64,000 bases of DNA from Phreatobacter sp. (GTDB lineage: Bacteria; Pseudomonadota; Alphaproteobacteria; Rhizobiales; Phreatobacteraceae), in NCBI RefSeq assembly GCF_022843985.1, contig NZ_JALHMP010000008.1, forward strand, positions 62,001 through 126,000, read 5' to 3'. Shown one piece after another: positions 815 through 50,320 of this stretch. The notes beneath the pieces are model-generated. The model had not been told where the DNA came from. It was given only the letters and a program-made list of their open reading frames with translations, and did no database searches. Position 1 is the first letter of the stretch; each line of letters starts with the position of its first letter. The translations under genes were made by a program, and so were the position numbers.

Positions 815-2092
815 TCAGCGGAAGACGAGCGTCGGCAGAGCCAGTGAGATCCAGGGCACGTAGGACAGCACCATCAGGCAGGCAAAGATCACGCCGATGA
901 AGACCGGCAGGTACCGCATCATCTTGTCGATACTGGTGCCTGCCACCTGCGCGGCAGCAAAGAGGTTCACGCCGAACGGCGGCGTAATCATCCCCATGGC
1001 CAGGTTCACCACCATGACCGTGCCGAAGTGGACGCTGTCGATGCCCAGCCGCTGCGCCGCCTCCGCCAGGATCGGCGCCAGCACGATGATGGAGGCCGAG
1101 GTCTCCACGAACATGCCGATCACGAACAGGAACAGGTTCACGGCCATCAGATAGGAGTTCGCATCGTCGAAGGTCTTGACCAGCCATTCGGCTGCCATGT
1201 CCGGCACGCCCTGGCGGTTGAGCAGCCAGGAGAACAGCGTCGCGGCTGCGATGATGAACATGATGACCGCCGAGCTGATCACCGACTTCTTGAAGATCGG
1301 GTAGAGGTTGGGCAGCCGGATCTCACGGTGGATGAAGACGCCAACGATGATCGCGTAGACCACTGCGACCACCGAGGCTTCGGTTGGCGTGGTGATCCCG
1401 CCATAGATGCCACCCAACACCACCACCGGCATCAACAGCGCCCAGCCGGCCTGCTTCGTTGCCACCAGGAAGGGCAGCCGACCTTCGCCATCGTTCTTGC
1501 CCCAGCCCTTGATGCGGCACCAGATCAATACGGTCGCGACCAGCGCGCTGGAGATGAGGAGCCCAGGTCCGAAGCCCGCGATGAACAGCTCCGGGATGCT
1601 CGTCTGCGTGCTGACGCCGTAGAGGATCAACGGGATGGAGGGCGGTATGATCACGCCGAGTTCAGCGGCGGTTGCCTGCAGAGCCGCGGCGAAGGCCACG
1701 GGGTACCCTGCGCGGACCAGTGCCGGGATCATGATCGCGCCGATGGCGAAGGTGGTCGCGACCGACGAACCGCTGATGGCAGCGAAGATCATGCAGGTCA
1801 GGACGCAGGTCGCGGGAAGCCCGCCCTGGATGCCGCCCACGATCGACTTCGCGAAATCCACCAGCCGGCGGGAGATGCCGCCGACATCCATCAGGTTGCC
1901 GGCCAGGATGAAGAAGGGGATCGCCGCCAGCGGAAAGCGGTCGAGCCCGATGAAAAGCTGCTGCGCCGCCACGATCAGCGGGAAATTGGTGTAGCCGGTG
2001 AGCCCGACCACGGCGGCCAGGCCGATCGCCACCGCAACAGGGACGCTGGTTGCAAACAGCACCAGCATCACGGTGAGCATCATGCCGCTCAT
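815..2092 (-). CDS. dctM: TRAP transporter large permease (DctM family)
   Basis: Large integral membrane subunit of a tripartite ATP-independent periplasmic transporter, which couples solute uptake to an ion gradient. The 425-residue product is almost entirely hydrophobic. It carries family-type segments such as PFFILAGNLMDVGG near the N-terminus, the AELGVIIPPSIPLILYG region, and TPPFGVNLF near the C-terminus. The ORF track extends this frame to 2716, but that part is the shadow of dctQ. The start MSGMML at 2092 overlaps the dctQ stop as ATGA, which implies translational coupling. The substrate cannot be read from the permease. Confidence 0.93.
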   Translation of the reverse strand: MSGMMLTVMLVLFATSVPVAVAIGLAAVVGLTGYTNFPLIVAAQQLFIGLDRFPLAAIPFFILAGNLMDVGGISRRLVDFAKSIVGGIQGGLPATCVLTCMIFAAISGSSVATTFAIGAIMIPALVRAGYPVAFAAALQATAAELGVIIPPSIPLILYGVSTQTSIPELFIAGFGPGLLISSALVATVLIWCRIKGWGKNDGEGRLPFLVATKQAGWALLMPVVVLGGIYGGITTPTEASVVAVVYAIIVGVFIHREIRLPNLYPIFKKSVISSAVIMFIIAAATLFSWLLNRQGVPDMAAEWLVKTFDDANSYLMAVNLFLFVIGMFVETSASIIVLAPILAEAAQRLGIDSVHFGTVMVVNLAMGMITPPFGVNLFAAAQVAGTSIDKMMRYLPVFIGVIFACLMVLSYVPWISLALPTLVFR

Positions 2093-2697
2093 GACGCGTT
2101 CTCCAGTTCTTCCGACCGGCGGTCGAGGAAATGCGCCATCGCGCCCACCATGGCCAGCAGCGCACCCAGCGGAATGGCGGCATAGGCATAGGCCATCGAG
2201 AACTCGAGGCCGGCGATGGTCTGAAACTGGACGCGTTCGGTCATGGCCCAGCCGAACCAGAACATCACGCCGAGGAAGGAGAGCACGCAGGCAAGAGACA
2301 TCGCCTCGATCGTCCGCTGCAAGGCGCCGCTCGTGAAGCGTTGCGCGACATCGATCGAGACCAGCGCTCCTGCGCGAAGCGCGACCGCCACGCCGAGATA
2401 GGCCATCCAGATCAGCGCGACCCGCACCAGCGCTTCCGACCAGGAGGACGGTGTCTCGGTCGCGAAGCGGGCGACCACCTGCCAGGCACCGGCGGCCACG
2501 GCGATCGCCATGGCGAGGCAGGCGACCATGGCCGCGAGCTCGGTCGTGACGCGATCGAGGGTCAGAACGGCGCGGCGCGCCAGGGCGCGGGCGCCGCTGG
2601 CCTGGCCGCCACGGTGGCCCGCCCACAGGGCGAAGCCCACGGCAGCGACCGTTGCAACGGCGGTCACTTGCAGGGGCATGACATTGATCGCGTTCAT
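2089..2697 (-). CDS. dctQ: TRAP transporter small permease (DctQ family)
   Basis: Small membrane subunit of the TRAP transporter, 202 residues with four predicted membrane segments. It has the family-typical W-EAL-R--L-W--YLG pattern (SSWSEALVRVALIWMAYLG) in the middle. The N-terminal 45 residues before the core are longer than in many DctQ proteins and include an extra hydrophobic stretch. It lies between dctP and dctM on the same strand and overlaps dctM by four bases. A perfect GC-rich hairpin separates it from dctP. Confidence 0.9.
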   Translation of the reverse strand: MNAINVMPLQVTAVATVAAVGFALWAGHRGGQASGARALARRAVLTLDRVTTELAAMVACLAMAIAVAAGAWQVVARFATETPSSWSEALVRVALIWMAYLGVAVALRAGALVSIDVAQRFTSGALQRTIEAMSLACVLSFLGVMFWFGWAMTERVQFQTIAGLEFSMAYAYAAIPLGALLAMVGAMAHFLDRRSEELENAS

Positions 2698-2721
2698 CTG
2701 TTCTCCAGCGCGGCAAGGAAA

Positions 2722-2751
2722 GGGGGCGCAGGGTTCGAGCCCTGCGCCCCC
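2722..2751 (-). promoter_or_regulatory. perfect 12-bp hairpin between dctP and dctQ
   Basis: GGGGGCGCAGGG and its exact complement CCCTGCGCCCCC flank a six-base loop TTCGAG. No U-run follows on the minus strand, so full termination is unlikely. Such elements after binding-protein genes commonly protect the 3' end of the upstream mRNA or cause partial termination, giving more binding protein than permease. That role is inferred here. Confidence 0.7.
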
Positions 2752-2773
2752 GGTCAGGCCAGTACAGCCAGGC

Positions 2774-3760
2774 TCACGAGCCGGGGCGCCAATCCCGGAT
2801 GCGGCGGAGCAGAGCGCTGTCGAGGCCCTGCTCGATCTGCGTGGCCCCGGAGGCGAGCGCGGCCTGGAAGGCGGCGCTGTCCACCTGCGTCACCACAGTC
2901 ATGCCGCGGCGGCGCAGTTCGTCGACGCCGGTCTGTTCGTCGGAGGTGACGCGCGCGCGGTTCGCCGCGGCCGCATCGCGGCCGGCCTGCACAAGCGCGG
3001 CGCGATCCTGCGCGTTCAACCGGCTCACGAAGGCCGGGTTGCAGAGCAGCAGCGCCGGCGAATAGACGTGGCCGGTCAGCGTCAGGAAGCGTTGTACCTG
3101 GTTCAGGTTGTTGTTCAGGATCACCGGGATCGGGTTTTCCTGCCCGTCCACCGTCCCCTGCTGCAGCGCCGGCACCAGTTCGCTGAACGCCATCGGCGTC
3201 GGCAGTGCGCCGAGCGTCTGGAAGGCGCGCATGTGCACGGGGTTTTCCATGGTGCGCACCTTCAGGCCACGCACATCGGCGGGTGAGTTCACCTCGCGCC
3301 GGCTGTTGGTCATGTGGCGGAAGCCGTTCTCGAGCCAGGCCACCGCATAGATGCCACGCGCGGGGAAACGCTGAAGAAGTTCCTGGCCAATCGGGCTGTC
3401 CAGCAGGCCGCGGGCATGGGCGGTGTCACGGAACAGGAAGGGCACGTCGAGGTTGCGGGTTTCCGGGACAAAATTGCCGACCGGGCCTGTCGAGGTGATG
3501 GTGCACTCAATGGTGCCGATCTGTACGGCCTCGATCGTCTCGCGCTCGTTGTCGTTGCGCTGATAGACCACGCGGAAGCGGTTGTTGGTCAGCCGCTCGA
3601 AGGTTTCCTTGAAAGCGGTCGTGCCGGCGCCGTAGTGGCTGTTGATCCCGATCGGATGCTGGAAGGTCACCTGGGTCTGGGCCAGGGCCGGGGCGGCGCC
3701 GAGCGCCAGCGTGGCGCCAATCGCCAAGGTCTTGAGGCCCGTTCGGCGGGTCATCGTCAT
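2774..3760 (-). CDS. dctP: TRAP transporter substrate-binding protein (DctP family)
   Basis: Periplasmic solute receptor of 328 residues. The N-terminus MTMTRRTGLKTLAIGATLAL...ALAQ is a signal peptide with a twin-arginine pair and probable cleavage after ALA. The mature protein has the DctP fold signature: the GLKVRTMENPVHMRAFQTLG segment with the arginine that normally binds the ligand carboxylate, then FSELVPALQQGTVDGQENP. This residue pattern favours an organic acid ligand, but the specific substrate is not evident. It is the first gene of dctP-dctQ-dctM, so the promoter should lie upstream of 3760. Confidence 0.92.
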   Translation of the reverse strand: MTMTRRTGLKTLAIGATLALGAAPALAQTQVTFQHPIGINSHYGAGTTAFKETFERLTNNRFRVVYQRNDNERETIEAVQIGTIECTITSTGPVGNFVPETRNLDVPFLFRDTAHARGLLDSPIGQELLQRFPARGIYAVAWLENGFRHMTNSRREVNSPADVRGLKVRTMENPVHMRAFQTLGALPTPMAFSELVPALQQGTVDGQENPIPVILNNNLNQVQRFLTLTGHVYSPALLLCNPAFVSRLNAQDRAALVQAGRDAAAANRARVTSDEQTGVDELRRRGMTVVTQVDSAAFQAALASGATQIEQGLDSALLRRIRDWRPGS

Positions 3761-6564: not shown

Positions 6565-8246
6565 AACGATCTCCCGAGGCCGGCGTCGAGGGTGGCGAGG
6601 ATCTCGGCCGGGACCGCCCGCCGCCAGCGGCCGGCGACATGGAGGTCAGGCCTGACGAGATAGACCGTGCCGGGAAGCGCGTCATAGGCGCTGGCGAGGT
6701 GACCGCCGGAATCGGCGAGCGGAACCGCGCAGGAATGGTCGAGCGTGCCGCCGACGATCAGGGCGCGCAGGCGCGGCTCGCGCGTCGCCAGCGCCGCGAC
6801 CAGCGCCGCAGTCTCGCCGGGCACTGCCCCGTCGGCGAAAACCAGTGCCGTGAAGCCGTCGCCGAGATGATCGGAAAGGAAGCCGTCGGCAAGGCGGACG
6901 TTGGCCAGCGCGGCGCCCGAGACCGGACCCGCATCAAACTCCGCATCGCGGCCGGCGAAGGGCGTCAGCGGGCTCGCGCCATAGGTATAGGGCTGCATCT
7001 GGCGTGGATTGGCGAAGGCCTTGGCGAAGTCCTCGGTCAGGGCGAGCGACAGCACCGCCTCGCGCACCAGCCGGTGGCCTGATGTCGGCGGCGTCATGAA
7101 GCGCGTGCTCTTGGTGGCATTGGCAAAGACGTCGAGCGTGGCGCCGCGCCTTTCGGGCGAGTAGCTGTCGAGGAGACGCGCATCGGCGGCGCCGTTCAGC
7201 ACATAGGCGAGCTTCCAGCCGATATTGTGGGCATCGGCGAGGCCGTTGTTGAGGCCGCGCACGCCGAAAATCGGCACGATGTGGGCGCTGTCGCCGATGA
7301 AGATCACGCGGCCATGGCGGTAGTCGTCGAGGGCGAGGGTGTTGGCGGTGTAGATCGACCACCATTCGAGTTCCCAGGGCCCGTCATGGCCGAGATCGGC
7401 GAGGATGGCGCCGACGCGGGCGCGGATCGTCGCCTCGCGCACCGCCTCTTCCGGGCTCTCGCCGTCACGCAGCTGGTAGTCGACGCGCCAGATGGCGTCC
7501 GGCTGCTTGTGCATCAGAACTGTGCCGCCTGGATTGGAGGCCGGGTCGAACAGGGCGCGCCTCTCGGTCGGGTGATCAAAGGCCATCTTCACATCGGCGA
7601 TGACGTAGCGTCCCTCGTAATTGTCGCCCTTCAGCCGCAGGCCGAGCTGCCCCCGCATGGCGCTGCGGGCGCCGTCGGCGGCGAGCACCCAGGTGGCGGC
7701 GAGCGGATAGGCCCCGTGCGGGCTCGCGACCGTCAGGGTCACGCCGCCGGGTCGGTTATCGGTGGCCGTTACCTCACTCTGCCAGCGGAAGGTGACACGC
7801 CCACTCGCGAGGCAGGCGTCGTAGAGGAACTGCTCGGTAAATTGCTGCTGCAAATTGTACATGGGCCGGAACTTTTCGTCGTCGGAGTCCGGCATAGTGA
7901 GGCGGTAGATCTCGCGGCCGCGATAGGAGCTGCGACCGGTCGTCCAGCCAAGGGCTTTGGCGAGAAAGGCTTCGACCGCGCCGATCCGCTCGAAGATGTG
8001 GAAGCTCGACCGCGCGATGCAGGTGGCCCGGCTGCCATCGTTGAAGGTCGGCTTGGCGTCGAGCACCAGGGACTCTACGCCGTAGCGCGCCAATGTCAGG
8101 GCGGCGGTCATGCCGATGGGCCCGGCGCCGACGATAACGACGGGGTGGACCGGACGGTTGCCGTCGAGTTCGGCTGCGCGCTCGGCCACAAAATGCGGAT
8201 AGGAAAAGTAGAGGGAGTCCAGCGGCCCCCTGCCCTCGGGTCTCAC
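6561..8246 (-). CDS. FAD-dependent aromatic monooxygenase (PheA/TfdB/MhpA type)
   Basis: Class A flavin hydroxylase of 561 residues, expected to use NAD(P)H and O2 to hydroxylate an aromatic ring. It has the N-terminal dinucleotide fold PVVIVGAGPIGMTAALTLARYG, the central GRVIFIGDSAHIVPIFGVRG motif that binds FAD ribose and pyrophosphate, and a thioredoxin-like C-terminal domain typical of the phenol hydroxylase branch. The size fits 3-(3-hydroxyphenyl)propionate hydroxylases. The substrate is not determinable. It is the first gene of a two-gene unit with DUF2783 and diverges from the Crp/Fnr regulator, which may control it. Confidence 0.9.
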   Translation of the reverse strand: MRPEGRGPLDSLYFSYPHFVAERAAELDGNRPVHPVVIVGAGPIGMTAALTLARYGVESLVLDAKPTFNDGSRATCIARSSFHIFERIGAVEAFLAKALGWTTGRSSYRGREIYRLTMPDSDDEKFRPMYNLQQQFTEQFLYDACLASGRVTFRWQSEVTATDNRPGGVTLTVASPHGAYPLAATWVLAADGARSAMRGQLGLRLKGDNYEGRYVIADVKMAFDHPTERRALFDPASNPGGTVLMHKQPDAIWRVDYQLRDGESPEEAVREATIRARVGAILADLGHDGPWELEWWSIYTANTLALDDYRHGRVIFIGDSAHIVPIFGVRGLNNGLADAHNIGWKLAYVLNGAADARLLDSYSPERRGATLDVFANATKSTRFMTPPTSGHRLVREAVLSLALTEDFAKAFANPRQMQPYTYGASPLTPFAGRDAEFDAGPVSGAALANVRLADGFLSDHLGDGFTALVFADGAVPGETAALVAALATREPRLRALIVGGTLDHSCAVPLADSGGHLASAYDALPGTVYLVRPDLHVAGRWRRAVPAEILATLDAGLGRSL

Positions 8247-45943: not shown

Positions 45944-46978
45944 ATGCGCCTGTTCAAACTGCCCAGCAGTGCTTTTCGCGCAGAACCTGTCTCGCCGTCG
46001 CGGCGAAGCTTCCTGGCCACGGCCTGTGCCTGCTGCGCGGTCTGGGCTCTGGACCCGTCCCCGGCCCTGGCGCAGTCGCCGGAGGTCCAGCGCCATATTG
46101 CCGCTGCGCGCGAGGCAGCCGGCACCGACCTTCTGTCCTATTTCGGCCTCAGCCAAATTGCCGCGCCGACACCCGGACTGCGGCAGGTATCCCCGGACGA
46201 ACTGATGCGCATGCCGACACCGCCTCCGGGCCGGGCCTTCGACAATCTGTTTTTCGTCGGCAATCGCTGGGTCAGCGCCTGGGCGCTCGTGACGTCGGAC
46301 GGCATCATCCTGATCGATGCCATGGACAATGACGACGAGGCCGAACACATCATCGATGCCGGCATGCGCAAGCTCGGCCTCGACCCCAGAGCGATCAAGA
46401 TGGTTGTCGTCACCCATGGCCACGGCGACCATTATGGCGGCGTCGGCTATCTCAAGCGGCAGTACAATCCCCGGATCATCGCCAGCACGCTCGACTGGAC
46501 GATGATGGAGACCGCGCTGGAATTCGACCGGCCGGACTGGGGACGCCCGCCGCAACGGGATGTCGCGGTCGACGACGGTGCCGTGCTGCGCCTCGGCGAC
46601 ACCACCGTCGATGTGCTGCTGACGCCTGGCCATACGATGGGAACGATCTCGCTGCTGTTCAACGCCAGAAGCGGCGGGACAACCCATCGGGTCATGCTCT
46701 GGGGTGGCACGGCGTTCAATTTCGGCCGCCGGAGCGATCGCCTGACCCGGATCAATGCCTATATCGACGGAACAGAGCGGGCGCGGGAGATCGCGGTGCG
46801 CCAGAATGTCGACGTTTTCATCTCCAACCACAATATCTACGACCGGGCGGTCGAGAAGCTGGAGACCATGGGCCGTGGCGGCCCGAATCCTTTCGTCCTC
46901 GGCTCGGCCACCACCGTCCGCGCCCTGACGGTCATGAACGAATGCGCCAAGGCGACCCGCGTGGTCTGGTCGAGCTGA
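45944..46978 (+). CDS. MBL-fold metallo-hydrolase, Tat-exported
   Basis: A 344-residue protein with a leader SPSRRSFLATACACCAVWAL and ALAQ cleavage site, so it is probably periplasmic via Tat. The metallo-beta-lactamase core has THGHGDHYGG (His-x-His-x-Asp-His), TPGHTMGTISLLF for the next ligand, and FISNHNIYDR for the last His. The pattern resembles subclass B3-like enzymes, but substrate specificity, including any beta-lactam activity, cannot be inferred. It lies between the lysR regulator and the puc operon and is likely controlled by the former. Confidence 0.85.
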   Translation: MRLFKLPSSAFRAEPVSPSRRSFLATACACCAVWALDPSPALAQSPEVQRHIAAAREAAGTDLLSYFGLSQIAAPTPGLRQVSPDELMRMPTPPPGRAFDNLFFVGNRWVSAWALVTSDGIILIDAMDNDDEAEHIIDAGMRKLGLDPRAIKMVVVTHGHGDHYGGVGYLKRQYNPRIIASTLDWTMMETALEFDRPDWGRPPQRDVAVDDGAVLRLGDTTVDVLLTPGHTMGTISLLFNARSGGTTHRVMLWGGTAFNFGRRSDRLTRINAYIDGTERAREIAVRQNVDVFISNHNIYDRAVEKLETMGRGGPNPFVLGSATTVRALTVMNECAKATRVVWSS

Positions 46979-47215: not shown

Positions 47216-47233
47216 TGTCACATTAAATTGACA
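47216..47233 (+). promoter_or_regulatory. PpsR/CrtJ-type operator
   Basis: TGTCACATTAAATTGACA fits TGTC-N10-GACA exactly, the binding pattern of the photosynthesis repressor PpsR/CrtJ. It lies just downstream of the predicted transcription start of pucB, where binding would block the promoter under oxygen or high light. Confidence 0.75.
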
Positions 47234-47460: not shown

Positions 47461-47622
47461 GTGGACAGTTTAGACGATCCAAACAGGGTCTGGCCAACGG
47501 GTCTGACCATCAAGGAGTCGGAGGCGCTGCACAGGCACGTCATCGACGGGGCGCGCGTCTTCTTTGCGATTTCGCTTTTCGCGCACATTCTTGTCTATAT
47601 CTACTCCCCCTGGCTCAAGTGA
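47461..47622 (+). CDS. pucB: light-harvesting complex 2 beta subunit
   Basis: A 53-residue antenna polypeptide missed by the ORF track because of its size. It starts with GTG, seven bases after GAGGGAG. It has a polar N-terminus, LTIKESEALHRHVIDGARVF with the conserved His24, and one membrane helix FFAISLFAHILVYIYSPWL with His42 as the bacteriochlorophyll ligand. The 18-residue spacing between these His residues matches LH2 beta chains. The N-terminal arm is about 12 residues longer than in Rhodoblastus acidophilus. The pucA gene starts 12 bases after its stop. Confidence 0.93.
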   Translation: MDSLDDPNRVWPTGLTIKESEALHRHVIDGARVFFAISLFAHILVYIYSPWLK

Positions 47623-47634
47623 CGGGGACCTCCG

Positions 47635-48036
47635 ATGAACAACGGTAGAATATGGTGCGTGGTCAATCCCACTGTCGGATTGCCGCTCTTCCTCGGCAGC
47701 GTCGCGCTGATTTCCTTCACGGTGCACTTCGCCGTGCTGAACAACACGACCTGGGTGGCCGACTTCTTCAAGGGCAAGTCGCGGACGACGGCACGCGCCG
47801 ACACCGCGCCGATTGTTCCGGTCGCCTTGCGTGCCGACGGCAACACCACGGTCGTCCTCAACATCGCTCCGACCGGCAACAGCGATGCCACCCGGCAGGT
47901 CATTGTGACGGTGACGCCGCAAGGGACGGCCAGCGTGGTGGACAGCCCGCCACGCGCAACCGCCAGCGCGACGGAAGGCTCGACCCGTGTGGTGGACAGT
48001 CCACCTGGGCGAATAGCCTTCGCCACACGAGAATGA
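47635..48036 (+). CDS. pucA: light-harvesting complex 2 alpha subunit with C-terminal extension
   Basis: The first 48 residues are a standard LH2 alpha chain. [17 protein letters not shown] supplies the formyl-Met side for B800, and the membrane helix has His31 as ligand for the B850-type ring. Trp40 is kept, but residues 44-45 are Phe-Phe, not the Tyr-Trp type that hydrogen-bonds bacteriochlorophyll acetyl groups. A further 85 residues, rich in Thr, Ala, Val and Pro with a repeated VVDSPP motif, extend into the periplasm. Typical alpha chains are 50-60 residues. Rhodobacter sphaeroides puc2A is a known extended case. Confidence 0.92.
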
Positions 48037-48289: not shown

Positions 48290-49687
48290 ATGAATTCGAT
48301 CAGCCAGAGAGCGATGAGGGCTTGGGTCGGGCTCGGGCCGCGCTTCCTGCCCTTTGCGGATGCCGCCTCTGCCGGGGTGCCGCTGTCGCGCCTGCTGCGC
48401 CTGTCGCTGGTTCAGGTCTCCGTCGGCATGTCGCTGGTGCTGATGGTCGGCACACTGAACCGCGTCATGATCGTCGAGCTCGGCATCTCAGCCGCCCTTG
48501 TCGCAACCATGATCGCGCTGCCTGTGCTGTTCGCGCCGTTCCGGGTCTTGATCGGCCAGAGTTCAGACACCCATGTGTCGGTGCTCGGCTGGAAGCGGGT
48601 ACCCTTCCTGTTCAACGGCACGATGGTGCAGTTCGGCGGGCTGGCCCTCATGCCCTTCGCGCTGCTCGTGCTGTCGGGCGGCGGTGCGGCCAAGGACTAT
48701 CCGGTCTGGATCGGGCAGGCCGCCGCGGCCCTGTCGTTCCTGCTGGTCGGAGCCGGTGTCCATACCACGCAGACTGTGGCTCTGGCGCTTGCCACCGACC
48801 TGACCCGCGATGACCGCCGGCCAAAGGTGGTCGGGCTCATGTATGTGATGCTGCTGGTCGGAACCATCGCCAGCGCGCTCACCTTCGGCTATTTGCTAGA
48901 GGAGTTCACGCCGGGCCGGCTGATCCAGGTGATCCAGGGCACTGCCGTGGTGACGATCGTGCTGAATGGCATCGCGCTGTGGAAGCAGGAGGGCCTGAAG
49001 CGCATGACGGCCGCCGAACTGGCCGCTCCGCAACCGCGCTTCCGCCACTCGTTTGGACGCTACATGCAGGGCAAGGCGGCGCGACGCCGGCTGGTTGCCG
49101 TCGGCCTGGGCACGATGGCCTTCGGCATGCAGGACGTGCTGCTCGAGCCCTATGGCGGCGAGATTCTCGGGCTCTCGGTCGCCGACACCACCAAGCTGAC
49201 CGCCGCCTTGGCGGGGGGCGGGCTGATCGGCTTCGCCGCGGCCTCGCATGTGCTGAGCCGCGGCGCCGACGCCTTCGCGATTGCGGGGCTCGGCACGCTC
49301 GTCGGCATCCTCGGCTTTGCCGGGGTGATCGCCGCGGCCCCGGCAGGCTCCCCCATGCTCTTTGCCGCGGGCGTCATCGTCATCGGTGCCGGCGGCGGCC
49401 TGTTCGGGCATGGCACTCTGACCGCCGCGATGAACCATGCGCCGGAGGGCCAGGCCGGGCTGGCGCTCGGCGCCTGGGGCGCCATCCAGGCCACCGCGGC
49501 CGGGCTTGGCATCGCCCTCGGTGGCATTCTGCGCGACGTGGCCATGTCGATGGGAGCGCTGGAAGGCCTTGGCGCGGCACGGGGCTATATGATCGTCTAT
49601 GCAACGGAAATCGTTCTGCTCCTCGCAACCTTCGCAGCGATGTCCTCGCTGTTTCGGCGCGCCGGGAACCAGAGCAGCAGAGGCTAG
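48290..49687 (+). CDS. pucC: PucC-family LH2 assembly / bacteriochlorophyll transporter-like protein
   Basis: A 465-residue membrane protein of the major facilitator-like BCD/PucC family with about twelve hydrophobic helices, required for LH2 assembly in other phototrophs. Family features include the N-terminal LLRLSLVQVSVGMSLVLMVGTLNRVMIVELG, GWKRVPFLFNGTMVQFGGLALMPFAL, and THTTQT-like VHTTQTVALATDLT segments. ATG 48290 is chosen with GAGG upstream, and the track frame runs back to 48062 without family sequence. It follows pucBA and precedes the repeat protein gene. Confidence 0.93.
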   Translation: MNSISQRAMRAWVGLGPRFLPFADAASAGVPLSRLLRLSLVQVSVGMSLVLMVGTLNRVMIVELGISAALVATMIALPVLFAPFRVLIGQSSDTHVSVLGWKRVPFLFNGTMVQFGGLALMPFALLVLSGGGAAKDYPVWIGQAAAALSFLLVGAGVHTTQTVALALATDLTRDDRRPKVVGLMYVMLLVGTIASALTFGYLLEEFTPGRLIQVIQGTAVVTIVLNGIALWKQEGLKRMTAAELAAPQPRFRHSFGRYMQGKAARRRLVAVGLGTMAFGMQDVLLEPYGGEILGLSVADTTKLTAALAGGGLIGFAAASHVLSRGADAFAIAGLGTLVGILGFAGVIAAAPAGSPMLFAAGVIVIGAGGGLFGHGTLTAAMNHAPEGQAGLALGAWGAIQATAAGLGIALGGILRDVAMSMGALEGLGAARGYMIVYATEIVLLLATFAAMSSLFRRAGNQSSRG

Positions 49688-49723
49688 CGGCGCGCAGCGG
49701 CCGTGGAACCGGGACATCGGGAC

Positions 49724-50320
49724 ATGACACAGACAATCTGCAAACTTTTCGGCACGCCGAGCCAGGCGACAGAGGCTGCGGACAGGCTCCGAGCCACCGG
49801 CTATCGCCAAGTTTTCGTGTTTCTCGGTGCTCCATCCGGATCCGACGAGACAGAACCCGCAGCCGATCCGGGCGCCGTCAAGGCGATGATGGACGCCTAT
49901 ATCTACAAGCCCCACGCGGAGATCTATGCCCGTCACCTCGCCAAGGGCGCCAGCCTGGTAATGGTCCACGCCTATTGGGGCACCGCGCAGAAGGCGATCC
50001 GTCTGCTCAAGAGCTTCGATCCCCTGCCCGACGCCATCCCGAAACCGCCGATCCCAAGCCGCCTCATCTACAACCCGCGCACGCCGTTCTCGAGCACGTT
50101 CGAACTGCCGCTACTCACCGAGAAGGTGAGATATCCAGCCGAGACCATCTTTGGAACCCCTTCCCTGACCAGACGGCCGCGTCTGGTCACCTCCCGCCTG
50201 TTTCCGATCCTGTCGGGTGGCGCGTCACCGTTCTCCGGCCTGTTCAACCTGCCGCTCCTGACCAAGTCCAAGACCCCGTTTTCGTCGCTGTTCCGGCTGC
50301 CGTTGCTGAAGCGCCGGTAG
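49724..50320 (+). CDS. unrecognised puc-operon protein with PFSxLFxLPLL repeats
   Basis: A 198-residue protein 36 bases after pucC, likely in the same transcript. Residues 1-100 look like a small alpha-beta domain (QTICKLFGTPSQATEAADRL, then VFVFLGAP) of the YflT/general-stress-protein kind. Residues 120-195 carry three clear repeats, TPFSSTFELPLL (120-131), SPFSGLFNLPLL (168-179) and TPFSSLFRLPLL (184-195), plus two degraded ones between. The repeats are amphipathic and basic between units (RRPR, KSK, KRR). I do not recognise the family. Binding to LH2, pigments or the membrane surface is a guess from context. Confidence 0.75.
   Translation: MTQTICKLFGTPSQATEAADRLRATGYRQVFVFLGAPSGSDETEPAADPGAVKAMMDAYIYKPHAEIYARHLAKGASLVMVHAYWGTAQKAIRLLKSFDPLPDAIPKPPIPSRLIYNPRTPFSSTFELPLLTEKVRYPAETIFGTPSLTRRPRLVTSRLFPILSGGASPFSGLFNLPLLTKSKTPFSSLFRLPLLKRR

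Follow-up and report, generated by a model that had tools for sequence, protein, structure and literature searches.

The window, the whole stretch of 64,000 nucleotides from Phreatobacter sp. that was analysed, contains a puc operon in which the genes for the LH2 antenna are followed by one further open reading frame. The features of the operon are as follows.

47216..47233, + strand: PpsR/CrtJ-like palindrome TGTCACATTAAATTGACA, upstream of pucB
47461..47622, + strand: pucB, LH2 beta; GTG start; Pfam LHC at 6e-9; the Asp of the IDG motif is residue 29
47635..48036, + strand: pucA, LH2 alpha; Pfam LHC at 9e-11 over residues 4-41 of 133
48290..49687, + strand: pucC, LH2 assembly transporter-like protein; Pfam PUCC at 4e-141; start at MNSIS
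49724..50320, + strand: the protein in question, proposed LH2 accessory of the PucDE family; 198 aa, ATG start

The order on the one strand is thus pucB, pucA, pucC and the 198-aa ORF. The preliminary description placed a real gene 36 bases after pucC, and this holds: the gap from the end of pucC to the start of the ORF is exactly 36 nt on the same strand. An alternative GTG start lies in frame at 49703; in the alignment with relatives the ATG is the start that is kept. The terminator scan gave zero candidates between pucC and the ORF. Seven PpsR/CrtJ-like patterns are found in the whole window, and the palindrome at 47216-47233 is, judged by its sequence, a probable control site of the operon. 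Similar TGTN12ACA sites are found upstream of pucB in loci L001, L018-L021 and L025, but not in L016, L017 and L022. The nearest solved chains to the pucB product are those of Rhodopseudomonas palustris LH2 beta. At its C-terminus the pucA product is extended by about 80 residues, and an extension of similar length is present in the same-genus relatives. Upstream of pucB, positions 45944-46978 encode a protein of the metallo-beta-lactamase fold which resembles subclass B3 and is below the curated cut-offs of NCBIfam. The genome also has pufLM, on a different contig, and the host is therefore a purple phototroph. One close relative comes from a Phreatobacter MAG.

No name for the protein was obtained from searches of Pfam, NCBIfam and the PDB. 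It has zero matches in Pfam, PF11181 included, and among ten relatives none is named in NCBIfam, with Pfam giving only a sub-threshold YflT match for some of them. A plasmid collection searched for annotated relatives gave none of use; a PucC-like match in R. litoralis from this collection was set aside, being located between bchM and puhA and outside any puc operon. No signal peptide or transmembrane helix was seen in the protein. It consists of an N-terminal domain and a tail of repeats, with the following positions.

49724..50038, + strand: residues 1-105, the N-terminal domain, with a predicted ferredoxin-like fold (AlphaFold) and a distant relation to YflT (PF11181 sub-threshold in relatives)
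50078..50128, + strand: repeat 1, RTPFSSTFELPLLTEKV
50129..50176, + strand: repeat 2 (decayed), RYPAETIFGTPSLTRR, aligned with intact repeats of relatives
50177..50221, + strand: repeat 3 (decayed), PRLVTSRLFPILSGG, from the alignment with relatives
50222..50269, + strand: repeat 4, ASPFSGLFNLPLLTKS
50270..50317, + strand: repeat 5, KTPFSSLFRLPLLKRR

The N-terminal part had been described as small and alpha/beta in shape, and the AlphaFold model (33 homologues) agrees, giving residues 1-105 a confident beta-alpha-beta-alpha-alpha-beta-alpha order with mean pLDDT mostly 93-97. A fold search with this domain returned PII/CutA/ferredoxin-like matches, all of them non-significant. The closest named domain is the heat-induced stress domain YflT (PF11181), which the first 105 residues resemble in fold layout and in N-terminal residues and which several relatives match at E around 0.001; the best of these matches, 19.5-19.6 bits, are below the gathering cut-off of 26.2. 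The family differs from YflT further in that it lacks the glycine-zipper insert of the related stress proteins and adds the repeat tail. The role in photo-oxidative stress that had also been suggested would have this distant resemblance of the N-domain as its sole backing.

Three near-identical 12-residue repeats had been noted in the tail. Three such 12-mers do occur, at residues 120-131 (TPFSSTFELPLL), 168-179 (SPFSGLFNLPLL) and 184-195 (TPFSSLFRLPLL), and they are far beyond chance: the best triplet has 27/36 pairwise identities, and when the tail was shuffled 200 times the mean was 12.7 and the highest value reached was 17. Their mean pairwise identity is, however, only 75%, and the tail is better described as a row of five units, each some 16 residues long; three are well preserved and two, located between the first and the second good copy of the 12-mer, are decayed. 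No tandem repeat was found in the ORF at the DNA level. The 16-residue motif can be written x-P-[LF]-S-S-x-[LF]-G-[LM]-P-x-L-[ST]-x-x-x. When the relatives in the order and class groups are pooled, the tails show a period of 16 with strong harmonics at 32 and 48, and 25 out of the 44 distances between motifs are divisible by 16. The constant feature of the tail, in 60 repeats, is the conservation of the Ser, Pro and Leu core positions. The charge of the tail varies from +18 to -5 among members and is basic in most. The label amphipathic is not supported by structure prediction, as AlphaFold gives the tail low confidence and predicts disorder interrupted by short helical turns where the repeats lie; a single-sequence fold prediction of one long relative was also of low confidence. 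Compared with two close relatives, dN/dS is about 0.28 and 0.24 for the N-domain and 0.21 and 0.38 for the tail, and both halves of the protein are under purifying selection.

About 50 alphaproteobacterial genomes were found to carry homologues, and virtually all full-length copies adjoin pucB, pucA or pucC. A search with the single protein gave 12 carriers among 298 genomes of the order, all 12 with the gene adjoining pucB, pucA and pucC. LH2-type beta was looked for in 61 genomes of the order, made up of 60 with reaction-centre genes and G160, and was present in 21; the 12 highest-ranking betas are those of these same 12 carriers. A profile search added five more diverged copies, again beside puc genes, so that 17 of the 21 LH2-bearing genomes have the gene. 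LH2 without it is restricted in the order to one genus (four genomes, with several puc copies). The gene was not found in the 40 genomes without LH2-type beta, six of which were searched with the profile too, nor in G227, a genome of the same genus with pufLM and without LH2-type pucB. Another genome of the genus, G160 (locus L017), has pucBAC and the gene, with zero reaction-centre L/M genes found in an assembly 99% complete; these have been lost or are missing from the assembly.

At the level of the class, all ten full-length matches are in puc loci. The arrangement varies: the gene may follow pucC, stand between pucA and pucC, or be transcribed divergently from pucBA. In Rhodobacteraceae 20 LH2 loci were sampled; a homologue comes right after pucC in 17 of them, and an R. 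sphaeroides-like genome is among the rest. The weaker matches outside puc loci, among those inspected, mostly cover the N-domain only and several are YflT-type stress proteins. A gene occurring mostly outside phototrophs, the outcome that the preliminary description had set against its own proposal, was checked for, and the full-length homologues were found beside LH2 genes. The near-perfect linkage over many lineages strongly supports the suggested role in peripheral antennae, and the function is very probably specific to LH2.

The presence of the gene covaries with a single residue of LH2 beta. Residue 29, the Asp of the motif H-x-x-[VIL]-[IV]-D-G-x-R, is Asp in all 52 beta copies with the gene in the locus and is Asn, Leu or Ala in all ten copies without it. 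These are 62 beta copies in all, and no other column of alpha or beta combines invariance among carriers with complete separation of the two groups. Because the PucC tree requires only two independent losses of the gene, this link is suggestive and not proof. Among the solved LH2 betas, Asp is present in that of Rps. palustris, which has the gamma subunit, and Leu in that of R. sphaeroides, which does not. LH2 beta of Rbl. acidophilus also has Asp, and no gamma is known from its LH2 structures; the Asp would therefore not suffice.

Gamma is the only described LH2 protein found with a layout of this kind and may serve as the closest working model. In Rps. palustris it runs as an extended ribbon along the outside of the LH2 ring on its cytoplasmic side, spanning six of the nine alpha-beta pairs with one repeat per pair, and the Ser of each repeat binds an extra BChl; its authors considered it confined to Rhodopseudomonas (PMC9618040). 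The structures are PDB 7ZCU, 7ZDI, 7ZE3 and 7ZE8. Like the window protein, gamma is an LH2-dedicated repeat protein with an extended, disordered-looking chain, and its repeat period is 16, as in the tails of the window family. A GxPL[IL]xK-like core is in register between the two, and the beta of the gamma host has the same IDG motif. Gamma differs in having no N-terminal domain and in the position of its Ser: at the position before G, where gamma has the BChl ligand, most of the 60 repeats have Leu, Phe or Ile, and the conserved Ser is four residues before G.

Homology between the two is another matter. A consensus trimer of the repeat, searched against 177,635 PDB sequences, gave gamma as the only match, in register and at E 0.14, the query being biased in that it was written by hand from the alignment after gamma was known. 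A profile of the natural tails did not find gamma, and column permutation of tail against gamma gave P of about 0.10; on these two results direct homology was rejected. A search with gamma in the LH2 genomes of the order, including the genus without the window family, gave one match at E 0.52, which was taken as chance. Since the natural-tail profile was null, P is about 0.10 and the Ser ligand is without a counterpart at the same position, the parallel may be a coincidence. That the protein works like gamma is a reasonable hypothesis, that it is gamma is not supported, and the comparison suggests that the string of repeats may lie along the LH2 ring as gamma does.

The position of the gene points to a second known system. 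In R. capsulatus the gene pucDE is listed after pucB-pucA-pucC and is co-regulated with pucBAC (PMC5359404; PMC4634722). The window gene, like most of its relatives, is in the same slot directly after pucC, and in the 17 Rhodobacteraceae loci mentioned above this slot is occupied by a homologue of the window protein. Because most sampled Rhodobacteraceae carry the window family there, PucDE is very likely a member, and from position the window protein is probably a PucDE relative. The Rhodobacteraceae tails, compared in place of PucDE itself, have repeats of 25-26 residues with the core FWPMPLLS (xFWPMPLLSxK), against 16 in the order and class groups. A 14-kDa third polypeptide was reportedly seen in R. 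capsulatus LH2 in early work. The accessory role proposed for the protein stands, while its description as new does not fully do so, the slot having long been named pucDE in R. capsulatus and gamma of Rps. palustris offering a functional parallel.

Taken together, the results favour an LH2-specific accessory subunit or assembly factor of the PucDE type, with repeats that would bind the outside of the ring on its cytoplasmic face, a reading to which we give a probability of about 0.5. The ferredoxin-like N-domain would stay in the cytoplasm, and a flexible chain of 16-residue motifs would extend from it, with one alpha-beta pair as the docking site of each motif. The proposed site is on the cytoplasmic side at the outer rim of the ring, close to beta residue 29, the position at which all copies with the gene have Asp. 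Several adjacent alpha-beta pairs would in this way be held together by one protein, which could be a bound subunit, as gamma is, or could act transiently while PucC helps to build the ring. Binding of the tail along the ring, taken as a separate claim, has about an even chance by our analysis. One motif per alpha-beta pair would not be universal, as the period in Rhodobacteraceae is 25-26 residues. Binding of extra BChl by the tail is possible, if improbable and unsupported. A bolder version is more tentative than the main reading: a widespread alphaproteobacterial gamma-like family with an N-domain, wrapping the LH2 ring with motifs in contact with the beta Asp and lost together with that residue, with a possible contribution of pigment in some lineages.

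The ring-bound ribbon is put somewhat ahead of a transient factor outside the mature ring, which would act with PucC in the assembly or stability of LH2 (by delivering or inserting alpha and beta or shielding them from proteolysis) with the repeats binding nascent alpha and beta or PucC. That the gene adjoins pucC in most loci and that most solved LH2 structures are reported without a gamma-like chain are both consistent with such a factor, and R. capsulatus pucD and pucE mutants are said to make less LH2, or less stable LH2. We nevertheless hold it to be a serious contender at clearly less than even odds, since the strict 16-residue period and the covariation with the beta Asp suggest an ordered contact with beta and not loose chaperoning, and since some loci have the gene divergent or between pucB and pucC. 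A regulator or membrane organiser, in which the N-domain would sense a ligand or stress and the tail attach LH2 to the membrane surface or pack the rings, is quite unlikely. The likeness of the N-domain to YflT stress proteins, and loosely to PII/CutA folds, and the basic tail of most members agree with it, but no conserved ligand site was identified, the fold matches are non-significant, and electrostatic attachment was rejected as a general property because the charge of the tail is not conserved. Least probable by far is a general stress protein placed behind pucC by chance, which draws on the similarity of the N-domain to PF11181, as the full-length homologues are beside LH2 genes in many families with varied gene order, and the stress proteins of the same fold, to which the weak class and phylum matches belong as YflT-type proteins without repeats, have glycine-zipper inserts or other tails.

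The preferred reading, in which the protein is an accessory dedicated to LH2 and probably belongs to the PucDE family, keeps the observation and the outline of the function first proposed for this gene, and departs from it in the number of repeats, the amphipathic label and the full novelty. Its wide distribution was previously unrecognised. LH2, a textbook antenna, is usually described as alpha, beta and pigment; a companion that adjoins its genes in most of the alphaproteobacterial LH2 loci sampled and is absent from the named-family databases may be an overlooked standard component or assembly factor. The gene is lost in the R. sphaeroides-like lineage, which provides the main LH2 model. 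The covariation with the beta Asp makes the contact site directly testable, and if the ring-bound reading is true, gamma-like ribbon subunits are not peculiar to Rhodopseudomonas.

Expanded tails are found in some Rhodobacteraceae. A paralogue at positions 6990-8186 of locus L101 has many 15-residue repeats such as PGHKFMAKFPFAHLV, with zero puc genes in the 14.5 kb examined. Locus L165 has two tandem family members after pucC (positions 1175-3178), one of them with many 25-residue repeats, and long expanded tails are present in loci L148, L153 and L154 too.
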